64,000 nt of DNA from Wenzhouxiangella limi (GTDB lineage: Bacteria; Pseudomonadota; Gammaproteobacteria; Xanthomonadales; Wenzhouxiangellaceae), in contig NZ_JAAGSC010000044.1 of the NCBI RefSeq assembly GCF_010499265.1, positions 279,266 through 343,265 on the forward strand, written 5' to 3'. Shown piece by piece: positions 6,743-13,852 of the stretch. The notes beneath the pieces are model-generated. The model did no database searches, was not told the origin of the DNA, and saw nothing but the letters and a program-made list of their open reading frames with translations. Each line of letters opens with the position of its first letter. Within the stretch, counting starts at the first letter, position 1. The position numbers and the translations under genes are program-made.

Positions 6743-8074
6743 TTGGGTGCGCTCAATCGTCTGCTGAAGGGGAACCTGGACACCAAGCTGGTCCGGGTGT
6801 TCATCCTGCAGATTCTGGCCATCAGCGTGGCCACCGTGGCCGGCGTCTACGCCGCCGCGCTGGTTGTCGAGAACGTGCTGGTGCGAGAAGCGCTGATTGG
6901 CGAGGCCGAGCATTTCTGGGTCCATCACGCGGAAGATCCGGATTTTCCGCTGCCCAACACCAACAACCTGCGAGGGTATCTTGCCCGCGGGTCGGATGAC
7001 TCCGCGGTGCCGGCCTGGCTGCGCGACCGCGAGCCGGGTTTCGGCCGCATCGAAGAGGCGCCGGGCTCGGAGCCGGTCATCCACGTCAGCCAGCGGGGCG
7101 AGGATCGCCTGTTTCTGGTCTTCGACGAAGTCCAGGTCTCGGCTTTGGCGTTTTACTTCGGGATCGCACCGCTGACCGGCGTGCTGCTGCTGATCTACAT
7201 TCTGACCTGGGTCGGCTACATCATGTCGCGGCGTGCGGTCTCGACGGTGGTCAAGCTGTCCGATGCCGTGCGCAACTATGACTTTCGCGCCGGGCATTTC
7301 CAGAAGTTCGATGTCGAGGAGTTTGCCGAAACCGGCGATACCGAAACCCTGGCGCTGGTCAACGCCATCAACCAGTTCATCAGCCGTCTGGAACTGTTCA
7401 TTCAGCGCGAACGCAATTTCACTCGCAACGCCAGCCACGAGCTGCGCACCCCGCTGGCGGTGATCAAGGCCAATATCAACCTGCTGGCGCGCTTTGATGA
7501 CCCGGACCGACGCCAGGCCGTGATCGAGCGCATGAGCCGGACCGTGGCCGACATGGAGTCGCTGGTCGAGACACTGCTGCTGCTGGCGCGCGAAAGCGAG
7601 TCCAAGCTGTCGTCCTCGTCGCTGGTGCTCAACGACATGTTGAGCGAACTGCTCGATCAGCTGTCCACGGCGCTCGGCAAGGACGATATAGAAACGGGTA
7701 TCCAGGCCCGCGGCCTGCTCGAGGTCGATGCGCCCGAGCGGGTGCTGGCCATCGTGTTCACCAACCTGTTGCGCAACGCCATGACCTATACCGAGCAGGG
7801 GCGGGTGGATGTGTTGATCGATCGGCGCGGGGTGGTCGTGCGCGACACCGGCTGCGGAATGTGCGAAGCCGACCTGGAGCACATGTTCGAGCCCTTCTAC
7901 CGCGGACACGATCGCAGCAACGAGGGCTACGGTCTCGGTCTGGCCATCGTCCGGCGCCTGTGCAAGCGGTTCGGCTGGGACCTGTCAGCCGAAAGCGAGA
8001 TGGGTGTGGGCACCGAAATCCGCATCGATTTCCCGCGCGCACGCTTTCGCCCGTTCGGCGAGCGCAAGGACTGA
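6743..8074 (+). CDS. Two-component sensor histidine kinase
   Basis: Membrane histidine kinase of 443 residues starting with TTG. Two transmembrane segments at about residues 18-42 and 136-160 flank a short (about 90 residues) periplasmic domain without a known fold. A linker of HAMP size leads to the dimerisation domain with the phospho-accepting His232 in ASHELRTPL. The ATPase domain has an N box (FTNLLRNAM), DTGCGM and GYGLGLAIVRRL. It follows the lipid cluster by 14 bp and no response regulator gene is adjacent. The nearest regulator, OmpR-type, lies 5 kb away on the other strand beyond the mevalonate operon. It may sense membrane state, but that is inference. Confidence 0.9.
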   Translation: MGALNRLLKGNLDTKLVRVFILQILAISVATVAGVYAAALVVENVLVREALIGEAEHFWVHHAEDPDFPLPNTNNLRGYLARGSDDSAVPAWLRDREPGFGRIEEAPGSEPVIHVSQRGEDRLFLVFDEVQVSALAFYFGIAPLTGVLLLIYILTWVGYIMSRRAVSTVVKLSDAVRNYDFRAGHFQKFDVEEFAETGDTETLALVNAINQFISRLELFIQRERNFTRNASHELRTPLAVIKANINLLARFDDPDRRQAVIERMSRTVADMESLVETLLLLARESESKLSSSSLVLNDMLSELLDQLSTALGKDDIETGIQARGLLEVDAPERVLAIVFTNLLRNAMTYTEQGRVDVLIDRRGVVVRDTGCGMCEADLEHMFEPFYRGHDRSNEGYGLGLAIVRRLCKRFGWDLSAESEMGVGTEIRIDFPRARFRPFGERKD

Positions 8075-8150
8075 GTTCTATGGCCGGGTTCTTGTCTGCC
8101 CGGTGGATTATCATGCCCGGCAAGTCTTCTCCGCTGCCCGTCGTCAGACC

Positions 8151-9119
8151 TTGAACACCGCAACCGCCCGCGCCGGCGCCAACATCGCCCTGGTCAAGTA
8201 CTGGGGCAAGCGTGATCCGCGCCTCAACCTGCCTGCAGCAGGCTCGCTGTCGATCACCCTGGCCGATCTGGAGACCGTCACCCGGATCGAAGTCGATCAA
8301 GGACTGGACGCCGATCGTTTCGAATTGGACGGCCGAAGCGCTGATCCAAGGCCGGTAGCGGCCGTGCTCGACCTGCTGCGACCGGCCGGCGGGCCGCGCT
8401 GTCGCGTGGTCAGCCGCAACAACTTTCCCACCGGCGCGGGTCTGGCCTCGTCGGCTTCCGGCCATGCCGCTCTGGTGGTGGCGGCGGCGGCAATCTTCTG
8501 TCCGCAGATGGGATCCGGGGACCTTGCGGCCATCGCCCGCCGAGGCTCCGGCTCGGCGTCGCGTTCGCTGTTTGGCGGCTTTTGCCAGCTGCACGCCGGT
8601 GTCGCCGAAGACGGCAGCGATTGCCGGGTCGAGGGGCTCGAGGAGGCAGGATATTGGCCTCTGGAGGTGGTCGTCGCCATCACCGATGCCGGACCCAAGG
8701 CGGTGTCCTCGCGCGCGGGGATGAACCGGACCATGGCCACCTCACCGTACTACCCGGCCTGGGTGGCATCGGTGTCGGCCGACCTGGAGCGCGCGCGCCG
8801 TGCGGTTGCCGATCGCGACTTCGATGAACTGGCTGAGGTCAGTGAGCACAGCGCCCTCAAGATGCACGCCTCGGCGCTGGCCGCGCAGCCGGGCCTGTTG
8901 TACTGGAATGCGGCCACGGTGGCCTGTCTGCGGCGGGTTCGCGAGTTGCGCGACCAGGGTGTCGGGGTCTTCTTCACCGTTGATGCCGGCCCCCAGGTCA
9001 AGGCCGTCTGCCTGCCCGGGCAGGCCGATCGGGTGGCTGCTTCGCTGGCCTCGATTGCGGGCGTTGAACAGGTGCTGCGCTCGGGATTGGGTCCGGGTGC
9101 GCGTCTGGTCGAATCATGA
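8151..9119 (+). CDS. mvaD: Diphosphomevalonate decarboxylase
   Basis: GHMP-fold enzyme of about 322 residues that converts mevalonate 5-diphosphate to isopentenyl diphosphate with ATP and release of CO2. The N-terminal signature ANIALVKYWGKRD and the phosphate loop GAGLASSASGHAALV are diagnostic for this family, as is the later HSALKMHASALAAQPGLLYW. A TTG start at 8151 is preferred since the conserved part begins immediately after it, and the upstream frame runs into the kinase gene. 76 bp separate it from the kinase. Its stop overlaps the next start (ATGA). Confidence 0.93.
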   Translation: MNTATARAGANIALVKYWGKRDPRLNLPAAGSLSITLADLETVTRIEVDQGLDADRFELDGRSADPRPVAAVLDLLRPAGGPRCRVVSRNNFPTGAGLASSASGHAALVVAAAAIFCPQMGSGDLAAIARRGSGSASRSLFGGFCQLHAGVAEDGSDCRVEGLEEAGYWPLEVVVAITDAGPKAVSSRAGMNRTMATSPYYPAWVASVSADLERARRAVADRDFDELAEVSEHSALKMHASALAAQPGLLYWNAATVACLRRVRELRDQGVGVFFTVDAGPQVKAVCLPGQADRVAASLASIAGVEQVLRSGLGPGARLVES

Positions 9120-10189
9120 CCACGATCATGGCGTCGGCACCGGGCAAGGCGGTGCTGCTCGGCGAGTACGCCGTGCTTGAGGGCGCGCCCGCGCTGGTCA
9201 TGGCGGTCGATCGCAGGGCCCGGGTGCGGCTGGCACCCTGTGAGAGTCCGGACAGCTGGATCGAAGTGCCGCAGCTGGGCCTGGCGCCGATCGGCTTCCG
9301 CGTGGCCGAAAACGGCGAAATCCTCTGGCGCGGAGCCGATGTGGAGCAAGCTGTTTTTCAGCGCGCCCGCCTCCTGCTTGAATGGCTGGTCCCCCGCCAT
9401 GCCGCCCGATTACCGGCAGGCGGCGGCCTGCGCATCCGGATCGATACCGGCGAGTTGTACCAGCAGCGGAAAGCGGGCCCGGTGAAGCTGGGTCTCGGCT
9501 CGAGTGCGGCGATGACCGTGGCCCTGGCCGGGGCGCTGGAAGCCCTGGGTGCGGTCATGTCGCGGGCTGCAGTCGTGGCGCGCCTGGAACAGCAACTGCT
9601 GGCGCCGTACCGGGCCGGGCAGGACGGCAGGGCCAGCGGCATCGACCTGGCGGCCAGCCTCCACGGTGGGGTCTGCCGGTACCAGCTCGACCCGGCGGGC
9701 GCCCATGCCGAGCCGGTTGTTTTGCCCGGCGCCCTGAAGCTGGCTTTTGTGTGGACCGGCGAGGCGGCCTCGACCCCGGATTTCCTGGCGCGATACGCGC
9801 GCTGGCGCGCTGCCTCGCCGGGCCAGGCGGCCCAGATGAGCCAGTCGCTGGAAAGCGCTTGCCGGGCGGGACTGGATGCCGTGCGCAGCGACGATGCGGC
9901 CGGTCTTATGACCTGTATCAATAACTATGGACGGCTGATGGGTAGAATTGGCGACCTGGCGGGTTTGCCCGTGGTCAGCGCCCCGCTCGTCGAGATCGCC
10001 CGGACTGCCGCAACACATGGTCTGGCCTGCAAGCCTTGCGGGGCTGGCGGGGGTGATCTGGCGATGCTGGCGGGTACCGAGGAAGCGGCGCTGGAACAGG
10101 CCTGCCGGTCGCTGGCCTCGCGCGGTTGGCCCCGGCTGGAACTGGGCCCGGCATCACGGGGGCTGCAGATAGAGACCAGCCCCGCCTGA
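9116..10189 (+). CDS. Phosphomevalonate kinase (GHMP family)
   Basis: A 357-residue GHMP kinase. N-terminal signature APGKAVLLGEYAVLEGAPALV, phosphate loop KLGLGSSAAMTVALAG at about residues 123-138, and a C-terminal glycine-rich motif CGAGGGDLAML. With the neighbours accounting for mevalonate kinase, reductase, decarboxylase and isomerase, the missing step is phosphorylation of mevalonate 5-phosphate, which this enzyme would do. Start ATG overlaps the mvaD stop. Sequence alone does not fully separate phosphomevalonate from mevalonate kinase; the LLGEYAVLEG form and the separate mevalonate kinase domain downstream favour phosphomevalonate kinase. Confidence 0.85.
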   Translation: MTTIMASAPGKAVLLGEYAVLEGAPALVMAVDRRARVRLAPCESPDSWIEVPQLGLAPIGFRVAENGEILWRGADVEQAVFQRARLLLEWLVPRHAARLPAGGGLRIRIDTGELYQQRKAGPVKLGLGSSAAMTVALAGALEALGAVMSRAAVVARLEQQLLAPYRAGQDGRASGIDLAASLHGGVCRYQLDPAGAHAEPVVLPGALKLAFVWTGEAASTPDFLARYARWRAASPGQAAQMSQSLESACRAGLDAVRSDDAAGLMTCINNYGRLMGRIGDLAGLPVVSAPLVEIARTAATHGLACKPCGAGGGDLAMLAGTEEAALEQACRSLASRGWPRLELGPASRGLQIETSPA

Positions 10190-10218
10190 TCCGGAAATCG
10201 AAAACAGAGTCTGCACGC

Positions 10219-12477
10219 ATGGAAAAATCCAGGATTCCGCAGTTTTACAAGATGTCGGTGCCCGAGCGGGTGCGAAAGGTTCGCGAACGCGGACTGATCG
10301 GCGCTGACGACTATCAGAACCTGCAGTCGGGGCGCCATACGCTGTCGGTGGATCTTGCCGACAAGATGATCGAAAACGTCATCGGCGTGATGGGTCTGCC
10401 GGTCGGTCTGGGGCTGAACTTCCTGATCAACGGCAAGGAGTTCGTGGTTCCGCTGGTGGTCGAGGAACCCTCCATCGTTGCAGCGCTGAGTTCGGCGGCC
10501 AAACTGGCGCGCGACAGCGGCGGTTTCGAGGTGGACAGCGACGAGCCCCTGCTGATCGGTCAGGTCCAGATCGTCGACGTGGCCAACCCGGCCCGGGCCA
10601 AGGCTGCCCTACTGCAGCGCAAGCATGAGATTCTCAATCTCGCCAACAGCCTGCATCCCAAGATGATAGCCCGCGGCGGTGGTGCGCGCGACCTCGAGGT
10701 GTTCGTTCATCCTTCCGAGGGTCCCGGCGGCGACATGGTGGTGGTGCACCTGCTGGTCGACACGCGCGATGCCATGGGGGCCAATCTGGTCAACACGATG
10801 TGCGAAGGCGTCGCTTCCCTGATCGAGGCGATCAGCGAGGGGCGGGTCTTTCTGCGCATTCTGTCCAACCTGGCCGATCGGGCGCTGGTCCGGGCCCGGG
10901 TGAGAATCCCGGTTGCGGCGCTGACCGGCAAGGGTTTTGACGGCGAGCAGGTCCGCGACGGCATCATCGTCGCCAACGACTTTGCCCGGGTCGATCCCTA
11001 TCGGGCCGCGACCCACAACAAGGGCATCATGAACGGCATCGACGCCGTGGCCTTGGCGACCGGTAACGACTGGCGCGCGATCGAGGCCGGGGCCCACGCT
11101 TACGCTGCCCGCGGCGGTCGCTACACCGCGCTGACGCGCTGGCACAAGGCCGACAATGGCGACCTGCTGGGCGAGCTGGAGCTGCCGATCAAGGTCGGCA
11201 CGGTCGGCGGTCCGCTGCAGACCAATCCAACGGTGGCGCTCAACCTGCGCATGCTCAGCGTCGACAGCGCGCGCGAGCTGGCCGAGGTGATGGGCGCGGT
11301 CGGCCTGGCCCAGACCTTCTCGGCGCTGCGCGCCCTGGTCACCGAAGGCATCCAGCAGGGCCACATGACGCTGCACGCGCGCAGCGTGGCCACCGCCGCC
11401 GGGACCCCACCGGAGCTGTTCGATACCGTGGTCGAGCGCCTGATCGCCTCCGGAGAAATCAAGATCTGGAAAGCCGAGGAGATTATTCGCAGCGTCCGCC
11501 TGCAGGCCGAACCGACCGCAGGTCGGCGCGATGAAGAGGTGCTCGAGGGCGAAACCCTGGGCGCCGGTCACGGCAAGATCATCCTGCTCGGCGAACATTC
11601 GGTGGTCTACGGCCGCCGGGCGATCGCGGCGCCGATTCCGCTGGCCATCCAGGCCCGGATCGAGGACACGCGCGAGGGGATCGACCTGATCATCCCGCGC
11701 TGGAGCATCGAGCAGCGCCTGGATTTCAGCGCCAAGCGTCCACCGTCGTTTACCCGTTCGCTGGCGCGGGTGCTCGAGGCGCTGGGCCTGAGCGGGCGCG
11801 GCATGCGCATCGAGGTCTTTCCCAGCGTCCCGAGGGCGATGGGGCTGGGCGGTTCGGCTGCGCTGGCCGTGGCGGTGCTGCGGGCGCTGGACGCGCATTT
11901 CAGCCTTGGCCTGACCGACGAGCGCATCAACGAACTGGCTTTCGAGTGCGAAAAAGTGGCCCACGGCACGCCGTCCGGTCTCGACAATACCCTGGCCACC
12001 TACGGCCAGTTCATGCTCTATCGGTCCGGCGAGCAGCTCGAGCGCCAGGTCATCGAGGTCACCGAGCCGCTTCCCATGGTCATCGCCATGAGCGGGGTGG
12101 AGAGCCTCACCGCGCGCACCGTGGCCCGGGTGCGCGAGGCCTGGCAGCGCAATCCCGGCCTTTACGAGCGCATTTTCGATGAAATCGACAGTCTCGTCGA
12201 GGTCGGCCTGGATGCCCTGGGCAAGCGGGACTACGAGACCCTGGGCGAGACCATGAACATCAATCAGGGCCTGCTCAACGCCATGCAGGTCTCGAACTGG
12301 GAGCTCGAGGAGCTGATCCAGATCGCGCGCACTCATGGCGCGGTCGGGGCCAAGCTGACCGGCGGCGGGGGCGGCGGTTCGGTGATCGCTTTGTGTCCGG
12401 ACAGCAGCGCGCGGGTGGCGCGTGCGATCCGCGAGGCCGGCTACCACGCCATCGAGGTGGAAGTCGGTGGTGCCTGA
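10219..12477 (+). CDS. HMG-CoA reductase (class II) fused to mevalonate kinase
   Basis: A single 752-residue polypeptide joining two consecutive steps: reduction of HMG-CoA to mevalonate and its phosphorylation. Residues 1 to about 430 are a class II (bacterial) HMG-CoA reductase. The catalytic set is complete: Glu83 in VVEEPSIVAA, Lys268 in THNKGIMNG, Asp284 in GNDWRA, and His382 in GHMTLHAR, plus the cofactor segment DTRDAMGAN. Residues from about 448 to 752 are a mevalonate kinase: GKIILLGEHSVVYG, phosphate loop PRAMGLGGSAALAV, catalytic Asp589 in GTPSGLDN, and GAKLTGGGGGGS. The linker between the domains is about 20 residues and charged. ATG 10219 is preferred; upstream frame belongs to the previous gene. 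No stop or frameshift lies between the domains. Confidence 0.95.
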   Translation: MEKSRIPQFYKMSVPERVRKVRERGLIGADDYQNLQSGRHTLSVDLADKMIENVIGVMGLPVGLGLNFLINGKEFVVPLVVEEPSIVAALSSAAKLARDSGGFEVDSDEPLLIGQVQIVDVANPARAKAALLQRKHEILNLANSLHPKMIARGGGARDLEVFVHPSEGPGGDMVVVHLLVDTRDAMGANLVNTMCEGVASLIEAISEGRVFLRILSNLADRALVRARVRIPVAALTGKGFDGEQVRDGIIVANDFARVDPYRAATHNKGIMNGIDAVALATGNDWRAIEAGAHAYAARGGRYTALTRWHKADNGDLLGELELPIKVGTVGGPLQTNPTVALNLRMLSVDSARELAEVMGAVGLAQTFSALRALVTEGIQQGHMTLHARSVATAAGTPPELFDTVVERLIASGEIKIWKAEEIIRSVRLQAEPTAGRRDEEVLEGETLGAGHGKIILLGEHSVVYGRRAIAAPIPLAIQARIEDTREGIDLIIPRWSIEQRLDFSAKRPPSFTRSLARVLEALGLSGRGMRIEVFPSVPRAMGLGGSAALAVAVLRALDAHFSLGLTDERINELAFECEKVAHGTPSGLDNTLATYGQFMLYRSGEQLERQVIEVTEPLPMVIAMSGVESLTARTVARVREAWQRNPGLYERIFDEIDSLVEVGLDALGKRDYETLGETMNINQGLLNAMQVSNWELEELIQIARTHGAVGAKLTGGGGGGSVIALCPDSSARVARAIREAGYHAIEVEVGGA

Positions 12478-13051
12478 TCGCGCCGGGCCGGCCCGGATTG
12501 TGTCTTCGGACGCCGAAGCGCTCATCCGCGTCGATGAAAACGACAATCAGCTGGGGATTCTGAGCAAGCGCGAGTGCCACGACGGCGACGGCGTGCTGCA
12601 CCGCGCTTTTTCGCTCTTTCTGTTCGACCAGAAGGGAAGGTTGCTGATGCAGCAGCGCTCGGCCGAAAAGCGCCTCTGGCCGCTGTACTGGGCCAACAGC
12701 TGCTGCTCGCATCCGCGCGCCGGTGAAACCATGGCCGAGGCCACCGAGCGCCGCCTGCTCGACGAGCTCGGTGTCCGTACGCCGCTGCACTTTATCTACA
12801 AGTTTCGGTACCAGGCCGGCTACGAGGATCTGGGATCCGAGCACGAATTATGCTGGGTCTACGTCGGCCGGGTCGAGGAGTTTCAGCTCAGCCCCAACCC
12901 CAGCGAACTGGCCGCCTGGCGCTTTGTCGAGCCGGATGATGTCGACCGCCTCATGAACGACCCGAACAAGCTGCTGTCGCCCTGGTTCCGGATGGAATGG
13001 GAAGCCCTGCGCGGAAAGTATCAGGCGGCGGTCGCCGAGGCCCTGAGCTGA
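12470..13051 (+). CDS. idi: Isopentenyl-diphosphate delta-isomerase type I
   Basis: A 193-residue Nudix-fold isomerase interconverting IPP and DMAPP, the last step of the operon. The active-site Cys lies in ANSCCSHPRAGE and the conserved Glu in GSEHELCWVYVG; the Nudix-like helix is EATERRLLDELG. Type I is metal-dependent and flavin-free. GTG start overlapping the end of the fusion gene; two adjacent GTG codons (12467, 12470) are possible. Lower end is 31 bp from the convergent response regulator gene, with no obvious strong terminator between. Confidence 0.92.
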   Translation: MPDRAGPARIVSSDAEALIRVDENDNQLGILSKRECHDGDGVLHRAFSLFLFDQKGRLLMQQRSAEKRLWPLYWANSCCSHPRAGETMAEATERRLLDELGVRTPLHFIYKFRYQAGYEDLGSEHELCWVYVGRVEEFQLSPNPSELAAWRFVEPDDVDRLMNDPNKLLSPWFRMEWEALRGKYQAAVAEALS

Positions 13052-13082: not shown

Positions 13083-13784
13083 TCAGGCGTCTTCCGGTGC
13101 GGCCAGCTTGAAGCCCATGCCCTGTACGGTGTGCAGGAGCTTGTTCTTGTAGGGACGATCAATTCCCTTGCGCAGGTTGTACATGTGCGAGCGCAGGGTG
13201 TCGGAGTCGGGCAGCATGTCGCCCCACAGCTCGTTCTCCAGCTGTTCGCGGCTGACCAGGCGGGGTGATTCGCGCATCAACACCTTGAGGATGCGGATGG
13301 AGGTTGGCGACAGGTTGACCCGCTCTCCCTCACGCTCGACGCGCATCGTGCGCGGATCAAACACCAGGTCGCCCACGCGCATGGCGCCGTCCGACATCTC
13401 GCCGCGCGCGCGCCGCACGAGCGCCCGGACGCGAACTTCCAGTTCTTCCATTTCAAACGGCTTGACCAGGTAATCGTCGGCGCCGGCATTGAACCCGGCG
13501 ACCTTGTCGTCGAGCTGGTCGCGGGCGGTCAGCATCAGGATCGGCGTGCCGTCGCCGCGTTCGCGCAGACGCTCGCACACCCGGATGCCGTCAATCTTGG
13601 GCAGCATCAGGTCGAGAATGATGATGTCGTAGGGGTTCTCGTCGAGCAGGTTCAGCGCAATGGCGCCGTCTGCAGCGAAATCCATGGCAAAGCCGCTGGC
13701 TTCGAGATAGTCGCCAATGCTGGCCGCGAGATCGTTGTGGTCTTCCACCAGCAGGATGGTGGCATTGCCTTCTGAATCAGTCAT
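13083..13784 (-). CDS. OmpR/PhoB-type response regulator
   Basis: A 233-residue regulator with an N-terminal receiver domain (acidic pair in LLVEDHND, phospho-accepting Asp58 in IILDLMLPK, Lys in YLVKPFEMEEL) and a C-terminal winged helix (NLSPTSIRILKVLM, SREQLENELWGD, LRSHMYNLRKGID). Start chosen at the ATG because AAGGAG lies six bases upstream; a GTG five codons earlier would overlap that ribosome site. It has no adjacent kinase. It sits downstream of rho on the same strand, and convergent to idi. The orphan kinase at 6743 is the obvious candidate partner. Confidence 0.93.
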   Translation of the reverse strand: MTDSEGNATILLVEDHNDLAASIGDYLEASGFAMDFAADGAIALNLLDENPYDIIILDLMLPKIDGIRVCERLRERGDGTPILMLTARDQLDDKVAGFNAGADDYLVKPFEMEELEVRVRALVRRARGEMSDGAMRVGDLVFDPRTMRVEREGERVNLSPTSIRILKVLMRESPRLVSREQLENELWGDMLPDSDTLRSHMYNLRKGIDRPYKNKLLHTVQGMGFKLAAPEDA

Positions 13785-13852
13785 TTGTCGCTCCTTCACA
13801 CTTGTCGATTTGACAATTGTGAAGGCGGGCTGTGAAAGGACGATGAACGGTA

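Follow-up and report, generated by a model that had tools for sequence, protein, structure and literature searches.

The window, the whole stretch of 64,000 nucleotides of Wenzhouxiangella limi DNA that we analysed, carries a tightly packed set of four mevalonate-pathway genes, from approximately position 8088 to 13051, in the order MVD-PMK-[HMGR-MVK]-IDI (Table 1). Family matches, with homology and position in the case of PMK, assign five activities to these four genes, just as the preliminary description of this DNA had proposed. The same description called the operon overlapping, which is right for two of its three junctions: MVD runs 4 bases into PMK, and the fusion about 8 into IDI (with the IDI start assumed), while PMK and the fusion stand 29 bases apart. 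MVD has its longest frame from 8004, with the upstream gene stopping at 8074, and its true start is uncertain. For the PMK-like kinase TIGR01220 is the best NCBIfam match, at a score under the cut-off of 165.7, and its probable identity as phosphomevalonate kinase rests on homology and on its occupying the same place in relatives.

Table 1. Features of the mevalonate locus and its immediate flanks (positions in the window)
Feature	Coordinates	Strand	Remarks
Sensor histidine kinase	6743-8074	+	PF00512, PF02518; directly upstream of the mevalonate genes
MVD, diphosphomevalonate decarboxylase	8088..9119	+	TIGR01240, 259.4 bits (cut-off 171.35); PF22700, PF18376
PMK-like GHMP kinase, probable phosphomevalonate kinase	9116..10189	+	TIGR01220, 92.7 bits
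HMGR-MVK fusion (HMG-CoA reductase, mevalonate kinase)	10219..12477	+	752 residues
HMGR half	10219..11508	+	Residues 1-430; class II reductase including three-helix C-terminal flap
Linker	11509..11556	+	About residues 431-446; pLDDT <50 at 431-445; no Met codon
MVK half	11557..12474	+	Residues 447-752; GHMP kinase fold
IDI, type 1 isopentenyl-diphosphate isomerase	12470..13051	+	TIGR02150, 160.8 bits (cut-off 105.8); NF002995, 164.8 bits
OmpR/PhoB-type response regulator-like frame	13083-13799	-	Recognised by eye; directly after the operon

The 752 codons of the fusion gene translate without an internal stop and both halves exceed the cut-offs of their NCBIfam models, in agreement with the earlier proposal that two consecutive enzymes share one 752-residue frame. 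The N-terminal half matches TIGR00532 (HMGR) over residues 1-387 with 412.1 bits (cut-off 259.95) and PF00368 with 366.6 bits. Its assignment to class II is based on the family cut-off being passed, on the presence of the catalytic Glu, Lys, Asp and His residues, and on a three-helix C-terminal flap in the predicted model (helices 378-393, 398-411 and 416-430). The closest solved relative by sequence, over residues 4-426, is the HMGR of Pseudomonas mevalonii, a catabolic enzyme; a Foldseek search against the PDB also returned it, its top chains reaching a TM of 0.93 when normalised by target length. The C-terminal half matches TIGR00549 (mevalonate kinase) over residues 451-725 with 246.3 bits (cut-off 163.05), as well as the GHMP N and C domains (PF00288 and PF08544), and contains the N-terminal Lys K453, the Gly-rich phosphate loop and the catalytic Asp D589. 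Its closest solved relative by sequence (residues 448-734) is the mevalonate kinase of Leishmania major, and Foldseek against the PDB returned mevalonate kinases (TM 0.79-0.88). The roles of K453, G544, S546 and D589 are presumed after other mevalonate kinases.

All the residues that had been singled out beforehand (E83, K268, D284, H382, the GLGGSAA loop at 542-548, and D589) sit where they had been placed. To judge their conservation we used an alignment of 47 rows, comprising P0001 and 46 of 66 fused loci, hand-picked to span the groups. E83, K268, D284, H382, K453, G544, S546 and D589 were invariant in 47/47 aligned fusions, and among the catalytic or motif positions that we checked, eleven are invariant in all 47. 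The phosphate loop as a whole does vary: the stretch that reads GLGGSAA in the window has GLGA in L028 and GLGS in L030. Taken at face value, the gene product would be one bifunctional enzyme for two consecutive isoprenoid steps, in which the kinase half is predicted to phosphorylate mevalonate with ATP. One close relative (G114) has an extra, free-standing MVK between the fusion and IDI (L148:3967-4926), 54% identical to the MVK half of the window.

The model that fits the reductase half best, TIGR00532, is named 'degradative', of the NAD type, and would be an annotation trap if taken literally. The NADH-selective enzyme of P. mevalonii has D146, L148 and L152, and D146A together with Arg at position 148 makes it use more NADPH; the NADPH-using reductases of staphylococci, enterococci and streptococci differ from it by D146Y, Q147P, L148S and L152R (all from extracts of PMC10070635). 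The fusion of the window has H146, P147, K148 and R152, so that the three NADH determinants of the degradative type are absent even though the TIGR00532 cut-off itself is passed. This pattern is only partly enterococcal: P147 and R152 agree, whereas H146 and K148 stand where Tyr and Ser are reported (PMC10070635, in extract). Among the 47 aligned rows P147 and R152 are found in 47 and H146 in 46, while position 148 has K or R in 31 rows and N in another 12; in a larger set, H146 is found in 72 of 74 fused HMGR rows. Residues 146-148 and 152 thus resemble those of NADPH-using class II reductases, unlike those of the NADH-using one, and because of this comparison with the published determinants (PMC10070635, in extract) we predict NADPH as the cofactor. 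Operon and residues together point to a biosynthetic reductase, probably NADPH-using.

An AlphaFold model built from 47 fused sequences has two well-formed domains and the three-helix flap (378-430), with a mean pLDDT of 85.6. Its pLDDT falls below 50 at 431-445 and its pTM is 0.59, which we read as leaving the placing of one domain against the other unfixed by the model. Across the 66 fused loci the linker, whose ends were set by the separate models of the two halves, has 8-76 residues (median 16.5) and no conserved sequence. It is rich in Ala, Pro, Ser, Gly, Glu and Thr, with 15% hydrophobic residues against 33% in the preceding part; that of the window is probably disordered and exposed. 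Because linker length ranges so widely and no sequence is conserved, the data favour flexible tethers and not a rigid tunnel. The longest linker and one of 58 residues belong to two Cryobacterium loci (L121 and L097, respectively), whose actinobacterial branch clusters with Salinisphaera; in the former a short GRESL motif is tandemly repeated.

A fixed tunnel that carries mevalonate from one active site to the other might have been expected from the consecutive order of the steps and from HMGR preceding MVK in 66/66 fused named loci, a count obtained with a rule that sought this order only. The rigid linker it calls for is unsupported, given the variable length and the low model confidence. 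Moreover, the flap of class II HMGRs carries the catalytic His, shifts on ligand binding and closes the active site (PMC10070635, in extract); it must move, and the kinase hangs behind it. We consider such a channel very unlikely. The exposed linker also brings to mind a precursor that is cleaved, or an MVK half made additionally from an internal start, either of which would leave two proteins in the cell. Codon 441 of the window is GTG and could serve this reading, but the linker of the window lacks a Met codon, Met occurs in only 10/66 linkers, and in sequences so poorly conserved neither a cleavage site nor a start is apparent as a conserved feature. Production of a separate MVK from a conserved internal start is thus unsupported, and the two-protein reading as a whole highly improbable.

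The loci mentioned above come from a named genome collection, searched with the fused protein as query, which favours fused forms. Among the best 80 of at least 587 loci, 66 had both halves fused in one frame (a few of them cut by a contig end), eight had HMGR and MVK side by side in two frames (five Myxococcota and three Bacillaceae), and in the other six HMGR was present and MVK was not found in the flank. Fused loci occur in Wenzhouxiangella and in non-MAG records of Dyella, Rhodanobacter, Salinisphaera and Cryobacterium. Others come from MAGs labelled Woeseiaceae, Calditrichota, Acidobacteriota, Planctomycetota, Ignavibacteriota and Nakamurella, labels that may be wrong; nevertheless, some groups are coherent in the HMGR tree, such as Calditrichota/KSB1 (8 rows, support 99) and Cryobacterium (5 rows, support 99). 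In the family of the source genome (f1) the whole fusion was matched in 32 of 35 genomes, with two partial matches and one genome without any. The frequency was 45/200 in the order sample (2 partial matches included), 9/369 over the whole length plus one partial match in an even sample of the class, and 2/398 in the phylum sample, the last two counts including the source genome. Only 29 of the 369 class-sample genomes match the fusion or one of its halves at E<=1e-30, which fits the earlier remark that a mevalonate route is uncommon in Gammaproteobacteria.

This distribution bears on whether the fused frame could be an artefact of sequencing or assembly in which a stop codon was lost. The event named beforehand as overturning the fusion, a frameshift or stop around codons 430-450, is now very unlikely, the linker being read through in 66 of the 80 named loci and also in single-contig genomes. 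The same fusion is present in the single-contig genomes G037, G051, G099, G060 and G115 and in the non-MAG records of Dyella, Rhodanobacter, Salinisphaera halophila and Cryobacterium. As independent genomes share it and we found no point in favour of an artefact, we reject that explanation as next to impossible. Judging from these sequences, the fusion is real, widespread and old, common to many relatives and to some bacteria of other phyla.

To trace its origin we built trees of a quick kind for each half. The HMGR tree (107 rows) omits 19 near-copies (L004-L022) and rows with fewer than approximately 300 HMGR residues; long branches are those of L049, L050 and L123. A single branch (SH-aLRT 100) sets all 74 fused rows apart from the rest, and the clade is nearest to Myxococcota with adjacent unfused HMGR and MVK and to L120, in which HMGR follows a PMK and MVK was not found. 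The HMGR row of the window groups with L053, another Wenzhouxiangella record, and with L052. The MVK tree with 80 rows, some on long branches, required two changes between the fused and unfused states, and one change with a support of 61 when L116, L122 and L123 were omitted (77 rows); the MVK half is hence compatible with one origin and does not show it by itself. Several independent fusions are unsupported by the HMGR tree, which needs one change. Distances in the two halves correlate strongly across 72 fused rows (r 0.92, reached in 0/1000 shuffles, which ignore relatedness), showing that the halves travel together. The simplest history would be a single stop loss between two adjacent genes in HMGR-MVK order, followed by vertical spread and transfer; the unfused order persists in Myxococcota and some Bacillaceae, and the direction of events is itself inferred.

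The order MVD-PMK-fusion-IDI is present in 37 of the 66 fused named loci. If only the 55 loci with 2500 bases or more upstream of the fused frame and 900 or more downstream of it are counted, 36 have this order. The remainder of the 66 comprise 15 loci with MVD-PMK-fusion in which IDI was undetected, two with IDI on the opposite strand, and 12 with other or shorter sets; for instance, in L087 the fusion is followed by IDI, MVD and PMK, whereas L083 shows only IDI, before it. In the window the mevalonate genes stand between a sensor histidine kinase and a regulator-like frame. Among the loci searched, only L052, L053 and L149 have homologues of both flanking the genes, one on each side. This split two-component pair may regulate the isoprenoid genes in Wenzhouxiangella.

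A mevalonate pathway with squalene synthase has already been reported in Wenzhouxiangella (PMC7691419, in extract). The preliminary description had suggested a search for dxs/dxr and HMG-CoA synthase in the rest of the genome, which is 3.35 Mb long and 99.59% complete; the synthase turned out to be present, and DXR had no match. The synthase (410 residues) lies on another contig (C32), exceeds the PF08540 cut-off and scores 340.0 bits with TIGR01835, slightly below the cut-off of 360.35. Its gene (L001:1465-3392, - strand) stands apart from the other mevalonate genes, a few bases after a gene for the fumarate reductase iron-sulfur subunit (NF010071, 404.3 bits). Neither DXR (PF02670) nor IspH (PF02401) had a match in the source genome, while each was matched in 10/14 control genomes.

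We then looked for DXR in 80 genomes. Of these, 43 were carriers, taken from the 51 that the order and class samples had shown to have the fusion at full length; another 20 had an HMGR-like gene that is unfused, and the other 17 lacked HMGR. The match was missing in 40 of the 43 fused genomes (the exceptions being G174, G115 and G238), and present in 8 of the 20 and in 16 of the 17, respectively. Because a DXR match is missing in 40/43 carriers and present in 16/17 HMGR-less genomes, the mevalonate route with the fusion usually replaces the MEP route. The HMGR-less comparison genome G017 (96% complete, 5% contaminated) is also without a DXR match.

For some carriers the source of HMG-CoA is in doubt, since 18 of the 43 have no recognisable HMG-CoA synthase. 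Twelve have a synthase of the type found in the source genome (65-100% identity); in 13 it is divergent, with 31-37% identity in frames of 491-572 residues. The 18 show nothing, or short weak matches mostly to frames of FabH size, with at most 37.6 bits for TIGR01835 (against 339.7 in the source genome) and no match to PF08540; they include the single-contig genomes G051, G099 and G115. TIGR00748 was uninformative, with matches in 47/48 genomes and none over the cut-off. It is possible that HMG-CoA comes from leucine in the synthase-less carriers. HMG-CoA lyase is found in 40 of the 43 fused genomes, all 18 among them, and because all five comparison genomes have it too, its presence does not discriminate. 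Genes for thiolase and acyl-CoA dehydrogenase lie near that for HMG-CoA lyase in G051 and in the source genome.

In the working model we propose, the N-terminal half, an NADPH-using class II HMGR, would convert HMG-CoA to mevalonate, and the C-terminal half, flexibly tethered to the reductase's mobile flap, would use ATP to convert mevalonate to 5-phosphomevalonate. From this, the products of the adjacent PMK, MVD and IDI genes would make IPP and DMAPP. The mevalonate kinase step is practically irreversible, and joining it to HMGR may pull the first step forward. The class II HMGR reaction itself goes both ways (PMC10070635, in extract). The likely advantage would be a fixed ratio and co-localisation, with phosphorylation beside the reductase pulling the reversible step and limiting the leak of mevalonate. 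A single polypeptide imposes a 1:1 ratio, barring processing; this ratio is not universal, as G114 carries a second, separate MVK. We give this whole reading, of a bifunctional HMGR-MVK enzyme of single origin with a flexible tether and the advantage of fixed ratio and co-localisation, a probability of roughly 0.87. In most carriers examined, and in W. limi, its route would stand in for the MEP route.

Two further readings differ from the preferred one in what proximity achieves. The halves could be enzymes that work independently, their fusion a neutral accident, frozen once it occurred, that secures co-expression and brings no benefit of proximity. The highly variable length and unconserved sequence of the linker fit this, as do a model without fixed orientation (pTM 0.59, linker pLDDT <50), the adjacency of both genes on one strand already in unfused relatives, and the separate MVK gained by G114. 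Yet no unfused row lies inside the 74-row fused HMGR clade, though sampling favoured fused loci, and persistence in records labelled with several phyla suggests, without proving, selection. We regard neutrality as a serious contender that falls somewhat short of even odds. At the other extreme, the fusion could act as a kinetic valve, in which a kinase mounted on the moving flap would phosphorylate mevalonate as it leaves the reversible, NADPH-using reductase; free mevalonate would hardly appear, and in synthase-less carriers HMG-CoA derived from leucine would feed isoprenoids. This combination seems to us unlikely.

Fusion of pathway neighbours as such is already known. MvaE of Enterococcus faecalis is likewise a natural mevalonate-pathway fusion with a class II HMGR (PMC10070635 and PMC13001223, in extract), but there a thiolase precedes HMGR and the steps are non-consecutive, with HMG-CoA synthase acting between them, whereas in the present fusion HMGR comes before MVK and one step directly follows the other. 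The IspDF fusions of the MEP pathway, described as common (PMC13001223, in extract), also join isoprenoid enzymes, though from another pathway and for non-consecutive steps. Each half has free-standing counterparts. The P. mevalonii HMGR (1qax and others) has 51-52% identity to the HMGR half over approximately 420-428 aligned columns (near full-length chains), with the same fold and catalytic residues; it is unfused and NADH-selective (PMC10070635, in extract), while the fusion has H146/P147/K148/R152 and a biosynthetic operon. The best solved relatives of the MVK half, free-standing enzymes of L. major (2hfs, 2hfu) and Methanosarcina mazei (6mde, 6mdf, 4hac), share its fold at 32-33% identity in the Foldseek search. 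Myxococcota (e.g. Corallococcus, L117) and Oceanobacillus/Ornithinibacillus (L124-L126) keep the same HMGR-MVK order in two separate frames; in these adjacent unfused loci MVD follows in 7/8 and PMK in 4/8, so that the remaining genes are arranged otherwise than in MVD-PMK-fusion-IDI.

The HMGR-MVK fusion was not found in titles and the beginnings of abstracts of the open-access literature, in which broader topics were sampled in part, a weak negative; the pair is perhaps undescribed in print. Protein databases probably hold these sequences, and lists of domain architectures may show the pair. HMGR is described as rate-limiting, and HMGR and MVK are named among the targets of engineering (PMC13001223, in extract). 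The fusion would offer a natural, long-lived single chain for two consecutive steps that include both of these targets, and the set of linkers of 8-76 residues, together with the unfused pairs of Myxococcota, would make its effect on mevalonate release testable.
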